From positions 124,001 to 188,000 of the forward strand of contig JAUICN010000004.1 in NCBI GenBank assembly GCA_030427835.1: a stretch of 64,000 nucleotides of DNA. The letters are read 5' to 3'. Positions 7,016-17,894 of the stretch are shown one piece after another. Both the position numbers and the translations under genes were made by a program. Source of the stretch: Polyangia bacterium. GTDB taxonomy: Bacteria; Myxococcota_A; Polyangia; Polyangiales; JAUICN01. The notes under the pieces are model-generated. The model was not told the origin of the DNA and ran no database searches. It saw only the letters and a program-made list of their open reading frames with translations. How positions within the stretch are numbered: the stretch's first letter is position 1; the number at the start of each line of letters is the position of its first letter.

Positions 7016-7300
7016 CTACTCCGGCGGGTCGAGGGGGTTGCGGCGTTTTTGGGAGGCTAGCATGAGCTGGTCGTAGAGGTCGGTGCCTAGCTTTTCCTTC
7101 ATCAATGCCTCCACCTGTTCCTGCATGGCGGAGCGCTCGGCCTCGTTTTCAAACAGAAACGCAATCCCCATCCCCGCGGGCTGCTCGTCTGTCGCCTGTT
7201 CCTCCGCAATGGCCCACAGCACCCGGCCCTTGATCACGAGTCTTTTTTCAGAATAGGGGGTAATCGGGGGGAACGTCTCAGAGCGCACAATCATCCCCAC
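7016..7300 (-). pseudogene. Truncated 3' end of a PilZ-domain gene (left copy of a duplicated block)
   Basis: From the TAG at 7016 to 7236 this sequence matches 17427-17647 without indels and with roughly ten mismatches by eye. The last ~70 residues are the same as in the intact PilZ protein (IKGRVLWAIAEEQAT.EQPAG ... RRNPLDPPE) with a single D/E difference, so most base changes are synonymous. Upstream of 7236 the similarity stops abruptly, and the frame continues into unrelated sequence (GMIVRSETFPPITPYSEKR). The RxxxR and NxSxxG motifs that bind cyclic-di-GMP lie in the missing N-terminal half, so this copy should not work. It marks the left junction of the inserted block. Confidence 0.85.
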
Positions 7301-7536
7301 CAGGAATTGAGGATCGACTTTCTAGTCGCGCGTGGCACATTCGACCGGGAGCTCATGGATGGCCGTTCACAGCGCCTTGCGATGCCCAATAACCCGATGT
7401 TTATTGGCACGCTGGGGGATTGATACCCGCATCGTGTGCAGGCGTTGGTTGGGGTAGGCCGATTCTCTGAATCCCATATTAGGACAATTGACGAACAGTA
7501 CGCGACCAAACCTCGAACCCATGCACGGATAACCCT

Positions 7537-8172
7537 ATGCGAGAACTCAAACACCTTTTTGACAACAACCGGAAGTGGGCGGAGCAGATGCGGCAGCAGG
7601 ACCCTGGCTTCTTCACGAAGTTGGCCGAGCAGCAAGCACCTCCCTATTTGTGGATAGGGTGTGCCGACAGTCGAGTTCCAGCGAACCAGATAGTGGGGCT
7701 TGATCCCGGTGAGGTGTTCGTTCACCGAAACGTAGCCAACGTGGTGTCCCATACCGATTTTAACTGCCTCTCTGTGATTCAGTACGCAGTGGAGGTCCTA
7801 AAAGTACGCGATATCATCGTGTGTGGACACTACGGTTGCGGTGGCGTCGCAGGCGCTCTGGCGGATGTGCCGTTGGGGCTCATCGACAACTGGCTGCGCC
7901 ATATCAAGGACGTGTACGAAGCAAGCGATCTCGTGCATGGGGCAAAAAATGGGGCGAAGGAAGCCGACACACTGTGCGAGCTCAACGTGGCCGCTCAGGT
8001 TCGCAACGTCTGCTACACAACCATCGTTCAAGACGCCTGGCGCCGAGGTCAGAACCTGTCCGTGCACGGGTGGATTTATTCCCTCGATGACGGCCTGCTC
8101 AAAGACCTTGATCTTTGTATCTCGGACCCGGACCAGCTTGCCGCAATCTATCGAATGCGGGGTACCGGGTAG
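7537..8172 (+). CDS. can: Beta-class carbonic anhydrase (Can-like)
   Basis: A 211-residue cytoplasmic enzyme interconverting CO2 and bicarbonate. Zinc ligands and the Asp-Arg dyad are visible at C42, D44, R46, H98 and C101 (WIGCADSRVP and CGHYGCGGV), at the same residue numbers I recall for E. coli Can. The length and flanking motifs (HRNVANVV, DTLCELNV, SVHGWIYSLDDGLL) match clade-B beta-CAs throughout. It lies about 680 bp upstream of the SulP-DabA-DabB run on the same strand. A CA next to carbon uptake genes suggests a role in handling accumulated bicarbonate, although it may also simply supply bicarbonate to carboxylases. ATG 7537 gives the family-typical N-terminus; no strong ribosome binding site is seen. 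Confidence 0.95.
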   Translation: MRELKHLFDNNRKWAEQMRQQDPGFFTKLAEQQAPPYLWIGCADSRVPANQIVGLDPGEVFVHRNVANVVSHTDFNCLSVIQYAVEVLKVRDIIVCGHYGCGGVAGALADVPLGLIDNWLRHIKDVYEASDLVHGAKNGAKEADTLCELNVAAQVRNVCYTTIVQDAWRRGQNLSVHGWIYSLDDGLLKDLDLCISDPDQLAAIYRMRGTG

Positions 8173-8856
8173 ACGCAAGCGTCTGGATCCGGATCCGAGC
8201 GGTCGTTCGCCTGGAACCTCGAAGGCTTTTGCGGCCTGGTGGAGTCGAGCTCAGCCAGTTCAGCGAAGGTCTCAAAGTATTCAATGTGGAGTAGGTTGCG
8301 CTAAACTACGGTCTGTGGGAAAAGCAACGCCAAGGCGAGGGTTCGTTCCCTCCTGGACTCATCACAACAATGGCTAGCAAAGAAAGCGCAGGATCGAACA
8401 CCCCGACCATGTTTTCAGGTGGTGCGGTCCTCGTTGTCTTTTTCGTCGCCCACGGGCTTCTAGCCTGGAATGCCCCTCGACTCTCTGCCCCCGATGGGTC
8501 CGGCTCGAGTTTTGTTCAATCATCCCACGCCGGCCTTGTTCACGGCGCGAAGCGACCAGATCCTCCCCTCCGCGACTTCTCGGCTGTGGAGGTCGAAGAG
8601 GAAGAGGATAAAGGCTCCCGTACGTTCGCTCGGAGATCTCACTTCGGAGAGATACCAGCTCTGGAAGTACCGGATCTCAACCGATTTAGTGTTGTATGGG
8701 CTGGTAAACTGCCTGGGCACCACAATGCCCGTGGCGCCCGCTCTCCTCCCTCCGCCTAGTGCACACACTGGTTTTCTAACCCGCTGAGTCCGCCGCGTCG
8801 CCACGCCCATCGCGTGGGCGACCTGCGGCAGGGCTCCGCCACGGCACGGGGAGTAT
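8173..8856. other. 684-bp gap without a confident gene between carbonic anhydrase and SulP
   Basis: Several overlapping frames are open but none shows a recognised domain. The best plus-strand candidate is listed separately (8370-8759). There is no strong terminator hairpin with a T-run. The last 20 bases hold a plausible ribosome binding site (GGGAG) for the SulP gene. Confidence 0.5.
8370..8759 (+). CDS. Possible small membrane-anchored hypothetical protein
   Basis: An open frame of 129 codons (ATG 8370, or ATG 8409). From the second ATG it would begin with a hydrophobic segment (GGAVLVVFFVAHGLLAW) that could be an anchor, followed by a polar, Glu-rich region. I recognise no family. Other frames are also open here and no clear ribosome binding site precedes either ATG, so this may be non-coding. 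Confidence 0.2.
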   Translation: MASKESAGSNTPTMFSGGAVLVVFFVAHGLLAWNAPRLSAPDGSGSSFVQSSHAGLVHGAKRPDPPLRDFSAVEVEEEEDKGSRTFARRSHFGEIPALEVPDLNRFSVVWAGKLPGHHNARGARSPPSA

Positions 8857-10455
8857 ATGATGAGCGTAGACACGTCCGCACACGCCAGCGGCTTTCCAGT
8901 TAAAGATCTTAAATCCGGATTTCTAGTTTTTCTGATTGCGCTTCCCTTGTGCCTTGGGATCGCAATGGCGAGCGGTTTTCCTCCGGTAGCCGGAGTCCTG
9001 ACTGCAATCGTCGGCGGCGTCGTCGTGACGTTTCTTGGCAGCACGCGATTGACAATCAAAGGTCCTGCAGCGGGCCTCATTGTGATCGCCCTCGGTGCCG
9101 TACAGGAACTCGGCATGGGCGACCCTAGGGTCGGCTATAAACGGGCGCTCGCAGTGGGAGTGCTCGCAGCAGTCGTACAGATCGTCTTTGCTTTGGCACG
9201 TGCGGCCACCGTCGGCGTCGCAATGTCGCCGTCGGTTGTCCACGGAATGCTAGCAGCGATCGGCGTGATCATTGTTTCCAAGCAGGCTCACACGATGGTG
9301 GGCGTATCCCCAGAAGCCAAAGAACCGTTGGAACTTCTGTTGGAACTTCCCAGTAGCTTACTACACGCCAATCCTGAGATTCTCATGCTTGGGGGGCTCT
9401 CCTTATTGATTCTCTTTGGCTGGCCTTTTCTGCGGTTGCGCTGGGCCAAAATGGTGCCTGCACCCATTGTCGTTCTGCTTCTCACGATACCCCTTGGTCT
9501 CTGGTTCGATCTCGACCACACGCATGACTACCGATTACTCGCACACAGCCATCATGTGGGCCCCGAGTTCCTGGTGCAGCTCCCAGGTTCCCTGCTCGAG
9601 GCTGTTGCTTTTCCAGATTTTTCGATGGTCTTCACTCCTACCTCTCTGAAGTACGTGGTCATGTTTGCTCTCGTCGGTACGATTGAATCTACGCTGAGTG
9701 TGATCGCCGTCGACTCGATGGATCCAAAGAAGCAAGCGTCCGATCTCAATCGTGATCTTTTGGCGCTCAGCATAGGCAACTTGGTGTCCGGCTTGCTCGG
9801 CGGGCTACCGATGATCTCCGAAATCGTGCGTAGCAAAGCAAACGTTGATGCCGGTGCGCAGAGCCGGTGGTCGAACTTTTTTCACGGCATTTGTCTTCTC
9901 GGATTCGTGGTGCTTCTGCCTCAGCTACTGAGTGAAATCCCACTTGCCGCACTAGCGGCGATGCTTGTCTATACCGGCGTGCGTCTCGCCTCTCCGTCCG
10001 AGTTTATTCACGCGAAACACCTTGGGCTCGACCAACTGGCTCTGTTTTTAGTCACCTTAGTAGTTACGCTTGCCACCGATCTACTCATCGGTGTGGGTGT
10101 GGGATTGGCCTTGAAGTTTGGATTGCATCTCTTCCGTGGTGTATCGATTCGTTCCCTCTTTCGACCAAAGGTGCACGTCAGTAGTAGCGAAGACGTGCTC
10201 ACTGTGTCGGTCGACGGTGCCGCAACGTTTATGGCGATACTAGCCGTTCGGCGTGCATTGACAGTGGTTCCACCCGGTGTTCGGGAGGTGCGCGTGGACG
10301 TTTCCGGGGCGACCTTGGTTGACCACACTTTTCTTAGTCGACTTGAGTCCATGTCCCACGAATGGAGCCATGCGAAACTCAATCTATATGGTCTTGATGC
10401 CTTTGAAGCTGCGTCGGATCACCCACAGTCCACACGAAAGAGCCTCAGGCCATGA
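8857..10455 (+). CDS. SulP/SLC26-family anion transporter with STAS domain (candidate bicarbonate transporter)
   Basis: A 532-residue membrane protein with about 11 hydrophobic segments over residues 20-430 and a C-terminal STAS-like domain (about 440-525; VSGATLVDHTFLSRLE). N-terminal SulP features are visible: FLVFLIALPLCLGIAMASGFPPVAGVLTAIVGG and GPAAGL. The family carries sulfate, bicarbonate and other anions. Here the 4-bp ATGA overlap with dabA and the nearby carbonic anhydrase point to bicarbonate, but the substrate cannot be read from sequence. A GGGAG ribosome binding site sits just before the paired ATGs at 8857/8860. It opens the translationally coupled run. Confidence 0.88.
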   Translation: MMSVDTSAHASGFPVKDLKSGFLVFLIALPLCLGIAMASGFPPVAGVLTAIVGGVVVTFLGSTRLTIKGPAAGLIVIALGAVQELGMGDPRVGYKRALAVGVLAAVVQIVFALARAATVGVAMSPSVVHGMLAAIGVIIVSKQAHTMVGVSPEAKEPLELLLELPSSLLHANPEILMLGGLSLLILFGWPFLRLRWAKMVPAPIVVLLLTIPLGLWFDLDHTHDYRLLAHSHHVGPEFLVQLPGSLLEAVAFPDFSMVFTPTSLKYVVMFALVGTIESTLSVIAVDSMDPKKQASDLNRDLLALSIGNLVSGLLGGLPMISEIVRSKANVDAGAQSRWSNFFHGICLLGFVVLLPQLLSEIPLAALAAMLVYTGVRLASPSEFIHAKHLGLDQLALFLVTLVVTLATDLLIGVGVGLALKFGLHLFRGVSIRSLFRPKVHVSSSEDVLTVSVDGAATFMAILAVRRALTVVPPGVREVRVDVSGATLVDHTFLSRLESMSHEWSHAKLNLYGLDAFEAASDHPQSTRKSLRP

Positions 10456-13406
10456 ACGTATCCACTAGGGTAGCGACGTCCCGGCAGACTGAACAGGGCC
10501 CGCGCGGAAGTCTTCCGTCGGTTCAGGAGATCGTAGAGGAAGCAGCACATCTTCTTCCAGAGCAGGCACCCCTTCATGCCTTTGTGCACCACAACACGCT
10601 TCACGCGTTTGAGCACCTGTCGTTCGACGAGGCCGTTGTCGAAGCGGCTAGCGTTCTCGGCACAGAACCGTTTCAACAAGAGTCGGAGTTTACAAAGTTC
10701 CTCGAAACAGGGCGTATTCGGCCACGGGATATTGCAGACGTCGTCGCGGATACGACGCGCGAGGGAAATGACCCAATTTTCCCTGGCGGTCCCACACATA
10801 CCGAGTTTCGTCGATGGCGACTACAAATCCAGTTCGAGATTCCACGTGGACATGCTCTAAGCTTTCTCCTGGCGGAGCGAAACGCATCGACTCGGTTTCA
10901 CCCATCAGTTCCTCGTCGTCGACGGCGCGACATTTTGGATGAAATGAAGGCGCAGACCGAAAACTCTTCGATTCCTCAGAGCCAAACAGGAGTTCTCCGT
11001 GATCTTTGGGAGTGTCTCTTGTCCCATGCGCCAGCCCAGTCCATGGATTCCAAACAAGGGGGAAGACGGCGCGACGATCTTCTCGAAGCGACCTCTACTG
11101 ACACCGACGAGCTCGTTCACCCTCTGCTTGTCCGCCTATGTGCAGCTTTTCTGGACCAGGGTATCGCGTACTGGCCCATGCCCGATCGCTCAAAGGGGTT
11201 CCTGAGAGCAGTTCGTCGCTTGTATGGGCTTCCCATTTCGGGGCCCGGCAGAACGTTTCGAGGGATAACAAGCCAACTGTATCGGCAAGAGCAAGAGAAC
11301 TGGACCGCTGAACGAACCGTCGTATGGGCCCTCTCCGAGCTTGGCGTTTCGCCAGAAAAGTATCCCGCGTACATCAAAGAAAGCCTGCTGGCGCTCCGTG
11401 GGTGGGCCGGCATGATGCGTCAACTCGAGCTTCGACCAGACAAGGCGCCGGTCCATCCGCCCAGATCCTCGTTGCTGGAGTTTCTTGCGGTCCGTTTGGT
11501 GCTCGATGTGTTTGCTGCAAAGAGCGTATTGCACGATCACTTCGGGGAGCACGCTAGTTTCGAGACCCCAAACGAACGTCGTCGGGATCTCGCCGGCCTC
11601 GAAGGCGTTGCGGACGCCCAGACGGACATCGAACTCGTTTACGAAGCGTTCGTTCTCGCCCAGAGACTTCCGATTTGTTGGGCCGCGCTAATGAAGGCAA
11701 AACATGCGAGGCTTTGGCTTCAGGAAGTTCGTGAGCTCAGTTCGTTGCAACGGCGACGACTGCTACAGTTGGCTCTTGAGCGTCGGCATCGCACTGAAAT
11801 GCTCGACGGGCTACAAGCACACGCCAGGGCGATGCGACCACACCCACCCCGTGCAAGTGAGGTCCAGGCCGTGTTCTGCATAGACGATCGTGAAGAATCG
11901 ACCCGGAGGCATCTCGAGGAAGCCAGCGTTCAGGTGCGCACCTATGGATATCCGGGCTTTTTCGGCGTTGCGGCGTTCTTCCGATCGATGGACGATCATC
12001 GACCCAGGCCGCTATGTCCGGTGTCGATTCGGCCAAGGCACCTCATAGAAGAAGAACCAACCGTTGGCCACAAATACAACCATTGGCATTCGACGCTGCT
12101 GCACCATCACCACGTTGGCAGGCTAACCCTGTGGCGCGGAATGTTGATCGCTCTGCTGATTGGCCCGTTCGCCATGCTCCCGTGGATTGCGGCGGCGTTG
12201 CTCAGAGGAAGAGCCGGTAGACTGCTCGCGCCTTTGCGCCGTCGCGCCGAAAGTCGAATCGACTTTCGCCACAGCGGTACGTTCGTAGACCGCCTCCAGA
12301 AGGGGTTTCGAATCGACGAAATGGCTGGCATTGTGGAGTCGCTTCTTGTTCAGACAGGAATCCTCAAAGACGGGATTTCTCCGCTTGTTGTACTTGTTGG
12401 CCACGGCTCCTCGAGCGTCAACAATCCACACTTGGCTGCCTATGGCTGCGGTGCAACGGCAGGGGGATGCGGCGGGCCTAACGCACGGGTATTTGCGATG
12501 ATGGCAAACGATGCCGAAGTCCGACGCGTGCTTGCACAACGAGATGTTGTCATTCCCGAGACAACCCACTTCGTAGGCGCGATGCACGACACATGTAAGG
12601 ACTCGATCGAATGGTTCGACGTTGCATCAGTTCCGGCCCAACTTGCAGACGTGTATGGCCGGTTTGACGCCGCTTTCAAACGGGCACTTGTCCGCAACGC
12701 CAAAGAACGCACACGGTTATTTGGGACGGTTTCTCTCAACGCTACTCTCGGTGCCGCGAAGTGGCTCGTGGAGGCACGATCGATGGACCTTTCGGAGGCC
12801 CGTCCGGAGTACAATCATGCAAAGAACTCACTCTGCATTTTTGGCCCCAGAGACGTCACCAAAGGGCTATTCCTCGACCAGCGTGCCTTTTTGGTGTCAT
12901 ACGATTCATCCGAGGACGAAAACAGCCTGCGGCTCTGCCAAGTGCTCAAAGGAAGCCTTCCGGTCTGCGCTGGAATAAATCTCGAGTACCTATTCAGCAC
13001 GGTCGATCCTATTCGGTACGGCGCGGGATCGAAGCTGCCGCACAATATTACGGGCCTGCTAGGTGTCATGGACGGGCACGCTTCGGATCTACGAACGGGC
13101 CTCTACCAACAGATGGTGGAACTGCACGAACCGGTACGCCTCACTGCAATTGTGATAGCCGAAAGCGAACAAGTCAGCCGAGCGTTGAGTCTCGATGCCG
13201 CGTTACGCAATCTCATCGACAATCAATGGCTCTCGCTTGCCGTCATGGACCCGGAAACGGCAGGGGTAAGCGTATACGAAAAAGGGAAATTTCGTGCATA
13301 CCGAGCGCAAGTGAATACGATCGGGACGGCAGTCGATAGCTTGGCGGCATGCGCGGCCACCAGGTCTCCGGTCTCACCCATCGCGATTCGTGGGGAGGCG
13401 GCGTGA
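10452..13406 (+). CDS. dabA: DabA, DUF2309 / UPF0753 inorganic carbon transporter subunit
   Basis: A 984-residue protein of the DabA (formerly DUF2309) family. The four residues that form the carbonic-anhydrase-like zinc site in characterised DabA are present: C476 and D478 in VFCIDDREES, and H651 with C666 (VGHGSSSVNNP ... YGCGATAGGC), with the 15-residue H-to-C spacing expected. DabA with DabB is an energy-coupled CO2 uptake machine that hydrates CO2 vectorially to bicarbonate. Several His-rich stretches (HHNTLHAFEH, HWHSTLLHHHH) are also family features. The start overlaps the SulP stop (ATGA), and its own stop overlaps the GTG of dabB. Confidence 0.94.
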   Translation: MNVSTRVATSRQTEQGPRGSLPSVQEIVEEAAHLLPEQAPLHAFVHHNTLHAFEHLSFDEAVVEAASVLGTEPFQQESEFTKFLETGRIRPRDIADVVADTTREGNDPIFPGGPTHTEFRRWRLQIQFEIPRGHALSFLLAERNASTRFHPSVPRRRRRDILDEMKAQTENSSIPQSQTGVLRDLWECLLSHAPAQSMDSKQGGRRRDDLLEATSTDTDELVHPLLVRLCAAFLDQGIAYWPMPDRSKGFLRAVRRLYGLPISGPGRTFRGITSQLYRQEQENWTAERTVVWALSELGVSPEKYPAYIKESLLALRGWAGMMRQLELRPDKAPVHPPRSSLLEFLAVRLVLDVFAAKSVLHDHFGEHASFETPNERRRDLAGLEGVADAQTDIELVYEAFVLAQRLPICWAALMKAKHARLWLQEVRELSSLQRRRLLQLALERRHRTEMLDGLQAHARAMRPHPPRASEVQAVFCIDDREESTRRHLEEASVQVRTYGYPGFFGVAAFFRSMDDHRPRPLCPVSIRPRHLIEEEPTVGHKYNHWHSTLLHHHHVGRLTLWRGMLIALLIGPFAMLPWIAAALLRGRAGRLLAPLRRRAESRIDFRHSGTFVDRLQKGFRIDEMAGIVESLLVQTGILKDGISPLVVLVGHGSSSVNNPHLAAYGCGATAGGCGGPNARVFAMMANDAEVRRVLAQRDVVIPETTHFVGAMHDTCKDSIEWFDVASVPAQLADVYGRFDAAFKRALVRNAKERTRLFGTVSLNATLGAAKWLVEARSMDLSEARPEYNHAKNSLCIFGPRDVTKGLFLDQRAFLVSYDSSEDENSLRLCQVLKGSLPVCAGINLEYLFSTVDPIRYGAGSKLPHNITGLLGVMDGHASDLRTGLYQQMVELHEPVRLTAIVIAESEQVSRALSLDAALRNLIDNQWLSLAVMDPETAGVSVYEKGKFRAYRAQVNTIGTAVDSLAACAATRSPVSPIAIRGEAA

Positions 13407-14776
13407 CGAGTTTGTTGTCGCTTCTCGGAACCGTGTCGCTGGTGGTGGTACCAGGTGTTGTTAGCGCTGGAATTGGGATTGCAATGTGGTTTCGAAGGAC
13501 GATTCCGGAACAGGCCGAGAAGCATGTTGCCTCGACCATTGCTGCCTCGTTCTTGATCTGTGCCGCGGCGTCTCTCCTTCCTCTGTACGTGTATTTCTCG
13601 ACCAATGGCGCAGTAAATCACCACACACTAACCTCCTGGTTTTCCGTAGGGCACTACGACTTCTCGTGGGTCCTCATGTCCGATCCCCTGTCCCTTTTCT
13701 CGGCTCTCCTATGTGGAACGTTGCTCGGGTTGGTTGGCCTTTTTTCGCGCCGGTACCTTCATCGAGAGCCCGGTTACTTCCGTTTCTATTTCTTGCTAAC
13801 GCTCTTTGGCGCGGGTGTTGAACTCATCGTGTTGGCAGCGAGTCTCGATCTGGTCTTCGTAGGCTGGGAGATTGTCGGAATGACCTCGGCAATGCTCATT
13901 GCATTCTTCCATGAACGACGACAGCCCGTGGAGCATGGCCTTCGCGCATTTGTCACCTATCGTTTCTGCGACATCGGCCTTCTCGCCGCGATAGTATGGA
14001 CCCATCACACGGTTGGGAGTACGCATTATGTCGGAGGCCAATCAGGACCATGGAGCGGGTTGCCCGTTCCAGAGTCCGCATTCGATACTACCGTCATTGG
14101 CCTGCTGCTTCTTTGGGCTACGATGGGAAAATCGGCGCAGGCACCACTTGGAGGGTGGCTTCCGCGTGCGATGGAGGGTCCGACGCCATCGAGCGCCATT
14201 TTTTACGGTGCAATCTCTGTGCATCTCGGACCGTATCTGCTTCTGCGAGCTTCTCCTATTTTGGAGGCGAGTAACACCGTTGGCACCGCGGTGATCATCG
14301 TTGGCACCCTTACCGCACTTCATGCGACTTTTGTAGGCCGCGTGCAGACCGACATAAAAAGCGCGTTGGCATATGCATCGATGACTCAGGTGGGTCTTAT
14401 CTTCGTAGAAATCGGGCTCGGCTTCTACCACTTCGCGCTGTTTCACATGGTGGGACACGCAACGATTCGAAGTTTGCAAATTCTACGCTCGCCAAGTCTT
14501 TTGTACGATCAACATCGCCTTGAACAAGCGATGGGCCGCGTTCTTCCCAAGACAGGAGCATATCTCGAAAGGCTGATTCCAGTGGCCTTGCAGCGATGGC
14601 TGTATCGTCAAGCGCTCGAACGCGGCTATTTCGATGGCTTTCTGAGCGACTGGGTCATCGGCACCTTCATGAGGGTGTTTCGCACGCTAGATCAAGTTGA
14701 TCAACGGTTTACTGCGTGGCTCGCCGGAAGATCCGAAAAACGTGGCCCTTCCCCTCCTCAAACAGGGAGAGTTTGA
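13403..14776 (+). CDS. dabB: DabB-like NuoL-family proton-channel subunit (short form)
   Basis: A 457-residue polytopic membrane protein related to NuoL/MrpA antiporter subunits. GTG 13403 is chosen because it overlaps the dabA stop (GTGA) and has a perfect GGGGAGG ribosome binding site; a longer frame to 13349 would lie inside dabA. Proton-path residues are visible: Glu in FVGWEIVGMTS, Lys in MGKSAQAPLGGWLPRAMEGPTPSS, and Lys in DIKSALAYASMTQVG. The C-terminal part of full NuoL proteins is missing; the protein ends soon after a FLSDWVIGTFMRVFRTLD segment. It would couple proton-motive force to DabA. A second NuoL/M-like gene follows directly and may supply the missing half. Confidence 0.88.
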   Translation: MTSLLSLLGTVSLVVVPGVVSAGIGIAMWFRRTIPEQAEKHVASTIAASFLICAAASLLPLYVYFSTNGAVNHHTLTSWFSVGHYDFSWVLMSDPLSLFSALLCGTLLGLVGLFSRRYLHREPGYFRFYFLLTLFGAGVELIVLAASLDLVFVGWEIVGMTSAMLIAFFHERRQPVEHGLRAFVTYRFCDIGLLAAIVWTHHTVGSTHYVGGQSGPWSGLPVPESAFDTTVIGLLLLWATMGKSAQAPLGGWLPRAMEGPTPSSAIFYGAISVHLGPYLLLRASPILEASNTVGTAVIIVGTLTALHATFVGRVQTDIKSALAYASMTQVGLIFVEIGLGFYHFALFHMVGHATIRSLQILRSPSLLYDQHRLEQAMGRVLPKTGAYLERLIPVALQRWLYRQALERGYFDGFLSDWVIGTFMRVFRTLDQVDQRFTAWLAGRSEKRGPSPPQTGRV

Positions 14777-16143
14777 TGGTTTTTCTGGGTCCCACTGTTC
14801 TTGCGGTGATTTTCGGCTCGTGCAGTGCTTGGGTCCGAGGCTCTGGTGATGCAGGCATCGCGCGGAAACGATGTGCCTCCGTTGCCGTTGTGGGTGTCCT
14901 ATTGGAAGCCGGGTTTCTTTTTGTGCCAAACGCCTTTCCGGTGAATGCGAACGGCTGGATGCCGAGTGGCATGCTCGCAATAGCGCCGCTTGTCACCGCA
15001 TTGGTTGCCTTGATTTCAGTCGGAGCCGCGGCACTTGCGACTCACGATCAGGCAACGTTTGCCCGGATGATGCTGTTGTTTGCCGTTGCTGAAGCCTTTT
15101 TGGCCACAGACCATCCCCTGATACTCGTGCCTCTGTGGGCAGCCTCCTCAGGCATTGCCTGGGCAGACGTTCGACAGCGGTGCCATGAGCACGCGTGGCA
15201 TCGGGTGTTTGGGTTCTATCACTTTACGAGTCTGGCTGGCTTTGCCGCGGGTGCGATCCTTCTGTGGAGAGGCGTTGACGCGAGAGCGGCAACTGTTGCG
15301 TTGCTGTTGGGTATCGCCATTCGTGAGGGAATCATGCCCGTTCACAGTTGGTTTCCTCGTTTCGTGGAACATGCGCCGATGGGGATCGTCGTCGCGTTCA
15401 TCGCGCCGCAGCTCGGGGTGTACGCACAGCTCCAGCTTCTACACCAAAGTCAGCTTGGAGGTTTTCCCCAGGTAGTGGCCACTTTCGGTGCGGTGACGGC
15501 CGTGGCAGCGGCCATGCTTGGCGTTGTACAGGTCAAGGCACGTAGGGCCTTGGCCTATCTCATATTGAGTCAATCAGGGTTGGTTGCATTTGGACTGGAG
15601 AGCCAATCAAGCATCGGGCTGGTAGGAGCACTTCTCAACTGGCAGGTCCTGGCGATTGCAACCTCGGGTTTTGCGATGGCACTAAAAGCGCTTGAGGCTC
15701 GGCGCGGTCCAATGACATTGGCAACCCCCCAAGGAAGCTTCAGCCAGACGCCAAAGCTCGGTGTTGCCTTTCTCGTTCTTGGACTTGCGAGCGTGGGCTT
15801 TCCACTTACGTTGGGCTTCATCGCCGAAGATTTGCTCGTGCAAGGCACGGTGGAAGAGTTTCCAGTCTTAGGCTTGTCACTCGTTGTTGCCACCGCCTTC
15901 AACGGCGTCACGGTTCTGCGGGCGTTTTTCTACCTTTTCACCGGCACCGGGAAAACACTGGGTGAGCCAGACCTAGACCGACGGGAAGGGTATCTGTTTG
16001 GCTTCGCGATGACCGTGTTGCTGGTGTTTGGTCTTTTTCCCGGGCTTTTGGTGTCGTTTGAGGATCCAAAAACAGAGGACGCAAAACAACTGCCCCACGT
16101 CGACCAACGCCAAGTGCTAACCCCCGGCGACGCGCATCCATGA
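14776..16143 (+). CDS. Second NuoL/NuoM-like membrane subunit in the dab operon
   Basis: A 455-residue membrane protein with about 13 hydrophobic segments. The proton-translocating module is recognisable from IREGIMPVHSWFPRFVEHAP (equivalent to VK.P.HTWLPDAH..AP in NuoM, with Glu where NuoM has Lys) and VKARRALAYLILSQSG (Lys retained). The start ATG 14776 shares one base with the dabB stop (TGATG) behind an AGGGAGAG ribosome binding site. Canonical DAB systems have one DabB; here the antiporter-like part is split or doubled. It is not complex I, since no other nuo genes are present. Its exact role is inferred. Confidence 0.8.
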   Translation: MVFLGPTVLAVIFGSCSAWVRGSGDAGIARKRCASVAVVGVLLEAGFLFVPNAFPVNANGWMPSGMLAIAPLVTALVALISVGAAALATHDQATFARMMLLFAVAEAFLATDHPLILVPLWAASSGIAWADVRQRCHEHAWHRVFGFYHFTSLAGFAAGAILLWRGVDARAATVALLLGIAIREGIMPVHSWFPRFVEHAPMGIVVAFIAPQLGVYAQLQLLHQSQLGGFPQVVATFGAVTAVAAAMLGVVQVKARRALAYLILSQSGLVAFGLESQSSIGLVGALLNWQVLAIATSGFAMALKALEARRGPMTLATPQGSFSQTPKLGVAFLVLGLASVGFPLTLGFIAEDLLVQGTVEEFPVLGLSLVVATAFNGVTVLRAFFYLFTGTGKTLGEPDLDRREGYLFGFAMTVLLVFGLFPGLLVSFEDPKTEDAKQLPHVDQRQVLTPGDAHP

Positions 16144-16934
16144 ATGACAACGAGGTTACCGCGGTCGGGCAACGCACCCTTTTGCTATCGTGTGAAGAGA
16201 TCGTTGACCGGCTTCGTCGTGGAAAGCGTCTACCAGATCACGTCTTTGATCGGTTCTTAAGCAAAGAGGCACGCAGTGCCTCCACCCGCTTTTGGACTCC
16301 CTTGCACGTAGCAGCCCGCGTCGGAGCTTGGGTTCGCGAACTTGGCATGGATCGGCTGGTAGACGTGGGCGCCGGAACAGGAAAATTCTGTGTGATTGTA
16401 TCGCTCGTCACGGATTGTCAGGTTGTTGGAGTCGAACAACGCCCCCACCTGGTTCGGGAAGCTAGAAAATTGGCGCAAGCCTTCGGCGTGGAACAGCGAA
16501 TTGAATTTGTTTGCGGTGCGCTTGGACTCAGGGGGCAGTGGCCCCGGGCGGACGCGTACTACTTCTACAATCCCTTCGGCGAAAATGTTGTTGGCACAGC
16601 CTCTCAACTCGACCAAACCGTGGAGTTGAATCCCCGCCGCTTTCAGCGCGACGTAGAAATGACAGAGCGGTTCTTACAGGATGCACCTCTCGACACGGTC
16701 GTTATCGACTACAATGGCTTCGGCGGAACGATGCCCGCAAGCTATGAGGTGATATGCGAGAACCGAGCGGCCCCTTTTCTCCTTCGAGCGTGGAAAAAGC
16801 GACCCGACGACGCCAGCGCGACGGACAACTCGGACCGGGTAGTCTCGCAACATCCTTTAAGAGACTGTCGGATGGGAGTTGGAGATCGTGGTAAATCCCG
16901 TGATACAGGGCGAACACCCGATCGCGGACGATAG
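16140..16934 (+). CDS. Class I SAM-dependent methyltransferase coupled to the dab operon
   Basis: A 264-residue frame with Rossmann motif I (VDVGAGTGKFC), an acidic motif II residue (VVGVEQRPHL) and an NPF motif (YYFYNPFGENV) where the catalytic NPP/NPF loop of class I methyltransferases lies. Architecture resembles small DOT1-like or generic methyltransferases; the substrate is unknown. ATG 16140 overlaps the preceding stop (ATGA), the fourth consecutive coupling in this run, so it is co-translated with the transporter. The last ~45 residues (after RAWKKRP) are Arg/Asp-rich, lack domain character and overlap a minus-strand frame, suggesting the original 3' end was replaced or the stop was lost. 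Confidence 0.75.
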   Translation: MNDNEVTAVGQRTLLLSCEEIVDRLRRGKRLPDHVFDRFLSKEARSASTRFWTPLHVAARVGAWVRELGMDRLVDVGAGTGKFCVIVSLVTDCQVVGVEQRPHLVREARKLAQAFGVEQRIEFVCGALGLRGQWPRADAYYFYNPFGENVVGTASQLDQTVELNPRRFQRDVEMTERFLQDAPLDTVVIDYNGFGGTMPASYEVICENRAAPFLLRAWKKRPDDASATDNSDRVVSQHPLRDCRMGVGDRGKSRDTGRTPDRGR

Positions 16935-17284
16935 GATAACTTGCGGTAAGGAGGCACACGCGCAGTTTGGGCACGTCGACAAGTGGCTCGTGAGCACCGG
17001 TCTCCTCCCAAGCTGATAGCGAGGCCCTTTGTGATTCGGCAGCGACGCAGACGCCGGAATCCTTTTCGAGCTTTTCTTGAAGCGCTTCAGCCATTCGGAA
17101 AGCATGGGCCCGGGGCGACAACCGCACTCGATACTGGGTGATCAAGCCCGCTCACGTGGACAGCGGCTTGGCACACAGAAATCTCTCGTGAAATAGAACC
17201 AAAAGCCAACTCACCTTCGTTTTCACACCTGTCGGCCACGCCGCACAACAAGGTGACCTCCCCGGGGGTACGGTGTTCACTCAA
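16702..17284 (-). pseudogene. Uncharacterised minus-strand coding remnant, possibly frameshifted
   Basis: Two minus-strand frames join end to end. One begins at ATG 17284 (MSEHRTPGEVTLLCG ... SREISVCQAAVHVSG). The other runs from TTG 17145 (LITQYRVRLSPRAHAF ... KLRVCLLTASYPIVRDRV). A single-base shift near 17145 would fuse them into one plausible protein of about 190 residues. I recognise no family. The 3' part overlaps the tail of the methyltransferase frame. It could be a decayed regulator or an unrelated cargo gene. Confidence 0.25.
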
Positions 17285-17426
17285 CCGACACCGCTTAAGG
17301 GCGATGTCTTCAGCGTTCCGGTTCCGTGATGCGGCCAGCCGCCACCGATGACACCCAATCAGGGGTCGCAGTTGCGCTCATCTGTGCACACTGATCCCCC
17401 TGCCCATCGGACCTTGCTCGAAGCGC
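16935..17426. other. Gap at the right end of the island
   Basis: Apart from the possible minus-strand remnant reaching to 17284, I see no gene, tRNA, integrase or strong hairpin here. The stretch 17285-17426 is featureless to the stop codon of the intact PilZ gene. Confidence 0.4.
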
Positions 17427-17894
17427 CTACTCCGGGGGGTCGAGGGGGTTGCGGCGTTTTTGGGAGGCTAGCATGAGCTGGTCGTAGAGATCGGTGCCCA
17501 GCTTTTCCTTCATGAGCGCCTCCACCTGTTCCTGCATGGCGGAGCGCTCGGCCTCGTTTTCAAACAGAAACGCAATCCCCATCCCCGCGGGCTGTTCTTC
17601 GGTGGCCTGTTCCTCCGCAATGGCCCACAGCACCCGGCCCTTGATCATCAACCCCTCTTCGAAGTGGGGGGCGATGAAACGGAACATGAACTCCGTGCCC
17701 ACGGCCAGGGGCTGCTTGGTTTCAATGAACGTGCCGCCCTTGCTGATATTCCGTGTGTAGTCGGAGAACAGGGAGTTGATCCGTCGGTACTCCACCTTCA
17801 GTTCAATCGGGGTTCTCCCGTGTACCCGACGATCCTCGCCGGTGGACGTGCCGTCCAGGCCGCTATCTCCAGCGTTGTCCCCAGCGTCGCTCAC
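17427..17894 (-). CDS. PilZ-domain protein (TIGR02266-like), intact copy
   Basis: A 155-residue protein with an Arg-rich RxxxR-type motif (EDRRVHGRTPIELKVEYR, residues ~22-38) and a downstream NISKGG motif (residues ~49-54), the two cyclic-di-GMP contact elements of PilZ domains, followed by a beta-barrel (FIETKQPLAVGTEFMFRF). It resembles the TIGR02266 PilZ group abundant in Myxococcus. It is likely a cytoplasmic c-di-GMP effector in motility, adhesion or signalling. The 3' 221 bp are duplicated at 7016-7236. If the island hypothesis holds, the 5' half is host sequence and the 3' half came with the island. The C-terminal KEKLGTDLYDQLM helix lies outside the PilZ fold. Confidence 0.85.
   Translation of the reverse strand: MSDAGDNAGDSGLDGTSTGEDRRVHGRTPIELKVEYRRINSLFSDYTRNISKGGTFIETKQPLAVGTEFMFRFIAPHFEEGLMIKGRVLWAIAEEQATEEQPAGMGIAFLFENEAERSAMQEQVEALMKEKLGTDLYDQLMLASQKRRNPLDPPE

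Follow-up and report, generated by a model that had tools for sequence, protein, structure and literature searches.

A clade-C DabA operon of a Polyangia bacterium with a truncated DabB, an additional NuoM-like subunit and a possible proton path divided over both

The only structurally solved relative of the system reported here is DAB2 of Halothiobacillus neapolitanus (DabA2/DabB2, PDB 9rd0, PMC13144422), in which a DabA resembling beta-carbonic anhydrases (beta-CAs), with a Cys-Asp-Arg/His/Cys zinc site, is combined with a NuoL-like DabB. Cryo-EM and mutants have assigned the periplasmic half of its proton channel to TM12-13 of DabB together with an essential glutamate in the membrane finger of DabA, and Ala mutants of His260 and Lys347 in DabB impair the complex (PMC13144422). 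Leu658 of DabA2 is strictly conserved across 150 homologues, and canonical beta-CAs carry Gln or His at this position; DAB2 with the substitution L658Q remains without activity in vitro (PMC13144422). DAB1 of the same organism (DabA1, the small transmembrane protein Hneap_0908 and DabB1) is also described as a three-subunit system, but its third subunit is, by the description in PMC13144422, a small hypothetical membrane protein and not a NuoM homologue. MpsAB of staphylococci likewise consists of DabB and DabA homologues, here in a heterotroph, but has two subunits only, with DabB first. In L197, a copy from a staphylococcal plasmid, Leu658, the finger glutamate E444, His260 and Lys347 are all present.

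Additional membrane subunits beside DabA have been reported before. The accessible text of PMC5700660 (2017) defines a "clade C" in which ybcC (DabA) lies upstream of nuoL, together with COG0659 (SulP) and COG1008 (NuoM) genes. It gives no function, guesses at an exergonic ion pump and proposes, by analogy with complex I, that added membrane subunits move more ions. The locus described below has the same gene content and order, and is a member of this clade. The gene layout and the idea of an enlarged machine are therefore already known, and the gene set that an earlier note on this DNA described as an enlarged uptake machine had been anticipated. The accessible text makes no mention of a truncated DabB, a lost finger glutamate, a switch to His in the pocket or a fusion of subunits, and no later description of the clade-C system was found in the literature searched, which was thin on subscription journals and preprints. 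The changes that set the whole clade apart from the DAB2 structure appear to be undescribed.

The window, meaning the whole stretch of 64,000 nucleotides that was analysed, carries five intact open reading frames with four overlapping junctions (Table 1). Inspection of the coordinates confirmed all five and each junction exactly as claimed earlier: ATGA between SulP and DabA, GTGA between DabA and DabB, TGATG between DabB and the NuoM-like gene, and ATGA between the latter and a methyltransferase gene. The operon is an intact DabA-type inorganic-carbon cluster, and none of its five genes encodes a redox or quinone subunit of complex I. The 3.3 Mb genome, which is 98% complete, encodes one DabA; a RuBisCO large chain was not found in it, and its other three PF00361 genes form a separate complex I cluster on contig C15.

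Table 1. Features of the operon (8857-16934) and its surroundings; positions are those of the window.
Feature	Position	Strand	Basis or remark
Left direct repeat, truncated copy of PilZ gene 3' end	7016..7260		245 nt, 91% identical to right repeat
Beta-carbonic anhydrase	7537..8172	+	NCBIfam PRK10437, 282 bits (cut-off 251)
SulP-family anion transporter, weak C-terminal STAS-like domain, 532 aa	8857..10455	+	PF00916, 191 bits
DabA, long clade-C type, 984 aa	10452..13406	+	PF10070, 711 bits (cut-off 25); alignment to 9rd0 chain A
DabA membrane finger, residues 561-580	12132..12191	+	acid-free where DAB2 has E444
His789 codon of DabA (DAB2 Leu658, beta-CA transition-state position)	12816..12818	+	
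DabB, truncated NuoL-like subunit, 457 aa, TM1-11 then amphipathic tail	13403..14776	+	PF00361 and PF00662
NuoM-like third subunit, 455 aa, full 14-TM antiporter fold	14776..16143	+	PF00361
E351-D352 codons of NuoM-like subunit, conserved acid at TM12 break	15826..15831	+	
Class I SAM methyltransferase, overlapping passenger gene	16140..16934	+	methyltransferase folds (Pfam)
Right direct repeat, 3' end of intact PilZ gene (17427-17894, minus)	17427..17671		

DabA was found in 25 of 57 genomes of the same order, where it occurs in two kinds of locus. One is the canonical pair with DabB in front of DabA; in the other a long DabA precedes a short DabB and a NuoM-like gene, and a SulP gene is usually close by. 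A scan of named genomes yielded 80 further loci from Planctomycetota, Verrucomicrobiota, Acidobacteriota, Actinomycetota, Armatimonadota, Alphaproteobacteria and Myxococcota. The long DabAs group in a single clade with support 100, in a quickly built tree whose branches at the base of the clade are long. DabB follows DabA in 88 of the 90 clade-C loci with enough flank, and SulP lies near DabA, on either side, in 40 of 57. The neighbourhood comparison proposed in the earlier note upheld the second antiporter-like subunit, which is near-universal in the clade (77 of 79 testable loci, with a natural fusion of DabB and NuoM among the two exceptions) and forms one chain with DabB in two alphaproteobacterial genomes. 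Since it recurs in 77 of 79 testable loci, the order DabA, DabB, NuoM-like is not due to chance. Neither a NuoM-like gene nor SulP was seen near any of nine canonical loci. The three genes are a conserved core across several phyla, with the methyltransferase and the beta-CA outside it.

Some loci depart from this arrangement. A Verrucomicrobiaceae MAG (L085, 8902-20714) contains two clade-C clusters tail to tail and two SulP genes, and in a Schlesneria genome (L094) no recognisable DabB or NuoM-like gene lies within 9 kb downstream of the clade-C DabA. A six-gene variant (L062, G009:C162, 2789-15822, minus strand) encodes SulP, NuoM-like, DabA, DabB and two more NuoM-like proteins, hence four antiporter-like subunits. 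Its DabA reading frame is very long (1413 codons) and has the clade-C His but keeps an Asp in the finger, and its DabB is full-length and keeps His260 and Lys347. This locus branches at the base of clade C, contamination of the MAG is possible, and 284 genomes of the phylum yielded no second locus of the type. A search for relatives of the NuoM-like protein on viral contigs found none, and the eight plasmid DabA records examined, which were used as controls, contained only canonical two-gene systems.

The nearest solved chain to the SulP protein is BicA (6ki1), and its score against the NCBIfam BicA model NF050096 is 123.7 bits, with a cut-off of 880. SulPs transport many anions; only the SulP family is assigned here, and the protein may move bicarbonate. 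The beta-CA, a good match to the "can" type and the only intact one of the genome, was correctly placed upstream by the earlier note, but ends 684 bp before SulP and is therefore not translationally coupled to it. It was rejected as a part of the machine, only four of 98 loci having a beta-CA within 7 kb. The spacer (8173-8856) holds overlapping short reading frames in several frames with no clear gene, and is possibly decayed. An N-terminal fragment of a second beta-CA is located at G000:C3:142489-142689, the rest of the domain being absent nearby. The methyltransferase, for its part, had been proposed as a component. Within the order, only three clade-C loci have it as a neighbour, two of which belong to one genus, and about 80 clade-C loci from other groups yielded none with it. 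The proposal was dropped because homologues of the enzyme are mostly found away from DabA, in genomes or places without one, and the gene is probably a passenger outside the complex.

From the beta-CA to the methyltransferase the GC content is about 0.56, compared with 0.62-0.64 outside. This low-GC block lies between the PilZ repeats (7016-17671 with the repeats included), of which the genome has only these two copies, and adjoins a release-factor-2-like gene (RF-1/PCRF domain) and an S1-domain gene; no integrase was noticed. The gene cluster was probably horizontally acquired, and the block looks like one insertion, for example of a circular molecule that recombined into the PilZ gene. If it entered as a single insertion, the overlapping gene set including the methyltransferase may reflect the operon of the donor. 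The low GC of the block, the partial gene duplication at its flanks and a methyltransferase C-terminus that extends beyond its homologues would also suit decaying foreign DNA without function in this host; however, all five overlapping frames are intact and the clade-conserved residues are kept, and we regard decay as very improbable.

For the comparison of residues, 98 clade-C DabAs, 91 DabBs and 85 NuoM-like sequences (the last including one mis-picked complex I NuoM, L077) were aligned with DabA2/DabB2, NuoL and NuoM of E. coli, and 17 canonical pairs from Polyangiales, Actinomycetota, Alpha- and Gammaproteobacteria, Staphylococcus and haloarchaea. The zinc site of DabA (C476, D478, R480, H651 and C666 in our locus) is conserved in all 98 clade-C sequences, as in DAB2. 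The finger is not: the E444 position is Glu or Asp in 18/18 two-subunit DabAs, whereas any acid in the finger core is found in only two of the 98, and residues 561-580 of this locus contain none. The pocket has changed as well. Leu is present at the Leu658 position in 18/18 two-subunit DabAs, while clade C has His (92) or Asn (6), and the protein described here His789. With Leu658 strict in the DabA2 homologues and Gln or His in beta-CAs, the His/Asn of clade C would agree with a different chemistry or coupling, in which DabA hydrated CO2 without membrane energy, or the complex either coupled Na+, as claimed for MpsAB (PMC13144422), or worked with SulP as a bicarbonate porter. Yet the change to Gln leaves DAB2 inactive in vitro, and the membrane subunits are nearly always co-encoded with DabA. 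We consider such a change of chemistry or coupling unlikely.

The DabB of this locus shares with DAB2 a NuoL-like TM1-11 and most residues of the cytoplasmic half-channel, retaining E156, R187, D190, K243 and K319. It differs in that Tyr268 replaces His260 and Arg356 replaces Lys347 (DAB2 numbering for the replaced residues), exchanges that are found in 90 and 88, respectively, of the 91 clade-C DabBs. In addition, the Ile151 position is Glu in 91/91. This is the position of E144 in NuoL, which sits at a subunit interface in complex I (PMC13144422), and a regained TM5 Glu is to be expected if DabB meets the NuoM-like protein as NuoL does NuoM. The chain is also short, as the earlier note had observed: 101 residues follow TM11 here and about 105 in clade C, compared with 175-204 in two-subunit DabBs. 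This tail has no hydrophobic segment in 81 of 84 clade-C sequences, whereas two-subunit DabBs and NuoL have 3-5 TM helices there. An AlphaFold2 single-chain model (pLDDT 91.9) matches NuoL and has 11 TM helices followed by an amphipathic tail; TM12-15 of DAB2 are missing.

In the NuoM-like subunit the fold is complete and the inlet charges are reduced. Its AlphaFold2 single-chain model (pLDDT 90.9) has 14 TM helices and a Foldseek TM-score of 0.84 to NuoM, and TM12 is broken between residues 338 and 346, just before E351/D352. In this protein TM7 has Arg183 instead of Lys, the TM5 Glu and TM8 Lys are absent, and the TM12 acid is present. The same holds across the set: TM7 Lys is replaced by Arg in 81 of 85 members, the TM5 Glu and TM8 Lys are lost in nearly all, and 83 of 85 have an acid at position 351 or 352, the two without it being actinobacterial (L065 and L070). 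The claim that both subunits retain the Lys/Glu proton path is accordingly right for DabB (E156, K243, K319) but not for the NuoM-like protein, where only the TM12 acid is left.

These losses bear on whether DabB and the NuoM-like protein each form a complete channel and move one proton per CO2, so that the coupling would be doubled. In favour of such a pair of channels are the two PF00361 subunits in each operon and the complex I analogy drawn in PMC5700660. The earlier note had left the choice between a two-part and a double-coupled channel; two-part fits and double does not, because the NuoM-like protein is without inlet residues (no TM5 Glu or TM8 Lys, Arg for the TM7 Lys) and DabB without the outlet helices TM12-15. 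A natural fusion argues in the same direction. In an alphaproteobacterial MAG (L136, 11331-13664, plus strand) a truncated DabB and the C-half of a NuoM-like protein are encoded in a single 778-aa reading frame, in which the TM12 acid is still present but the TM7 Arg motif is not, and the same frame occurs in a second small alphaproteobacterial genome (95% identical). Two complete channels are hence in our judgement improbable. The fusion is the best evidence that DabB and the NuoM-like protein act as one unit, and suggests that the C-half is what is required.

The NuoM-like protein could also serve as a structural scaffold, packed into the groove where helices of DabB are missing; protons would then reach DabB from water or from the lipid side, and the TM12 acid would lie off the path. 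Its degenerate N-half and the lack of the acid in L065 and L070 would agree with this. The acid is, however, kept in 83 of 85 members amid variable neighbouring positions, and the fusion has it too; we would give a pure scaffold roughly one chance in five or six.

The observed gene order, residue pattern, topology and natural fusion are best explained, taken together and with the methyltransferase as passenger, by a proton path split over DabB and the NuoM-like protein, and we lean slightly towards this reading. From residues and topology we infer complex formation, proton route, direction and substrate as follows. DabA, the short DabB and the NuoM-like protein would form a three-subunit, membrane-energy-driven CO2-hydrating complex with SulP as partner, CO2 being hydrated at the zinc site of DabA. 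A single proton wire would run through both membrane subunits, the TM12 acid of the NuoM-like protein supplying the periplasmic half-channel and E156, K243, K319 and H348/H352 of DabB the lateral and cytoplasmic half. The two would touch as NuoL and NuoM do in complex I: TM1-11 of clade-C DabB retain the NuoL interface residues and the NuoM-like protein has the NuoM fold. Unlike in complex I, redox subunits are lacking, and one half of each clade-C subunit has lost charges or helices.

Several observations count against the split path. The replacement of His260 by Tyr and Lys347 by Arg also alters the cytoplasmic half; the two actinobacterial NuoM-like proteins have no TM12 acid, and the L094 DabA has neither partner nearby. 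Moreover, the beta-CA of the same block would dissipate cytosolic bicarbonate if co-expressed. Of the role first suggested for the operon, proton-driven inorganic-carbon accumulation in a non-photosynthetic host, the putative DabA-type complex with an additional NuoM-like subunit and the absence of RuBisCO stand, whereas the double coupling does not. In a host without RuBisCO, bicarbonate supply for biosynthesis would be the likely role.

In addition to its extra subunit, clade C has the DabA gene upstream of DabB, the reverse of DAB2. It is possible, although we put it somewhat below even, that clade C is a second mechanistic class of membrane-potential-driven carbonic anhydrases in at least six phyla, in which the periplasmic half-channel has moved from DabB and the DabA finger into a NuoM-like subunit (re-fused in one lineage), the pocket again has the His of beta-CAs, and coupling is enforced otherwise than in DAB2. 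Clade C, a large sister clade, breaks the finger glutamate, DabB TM12-13 and the pocket Leu all at once while the zinc site stays, and how proton flux drives CO2 hydration thereby becomes testable by comparison. It also suggests that treating the DAB-like systems of many heterotrophs, Planctomycetota among others, as two-gene units would be mistaken, in annotation as in engineering.
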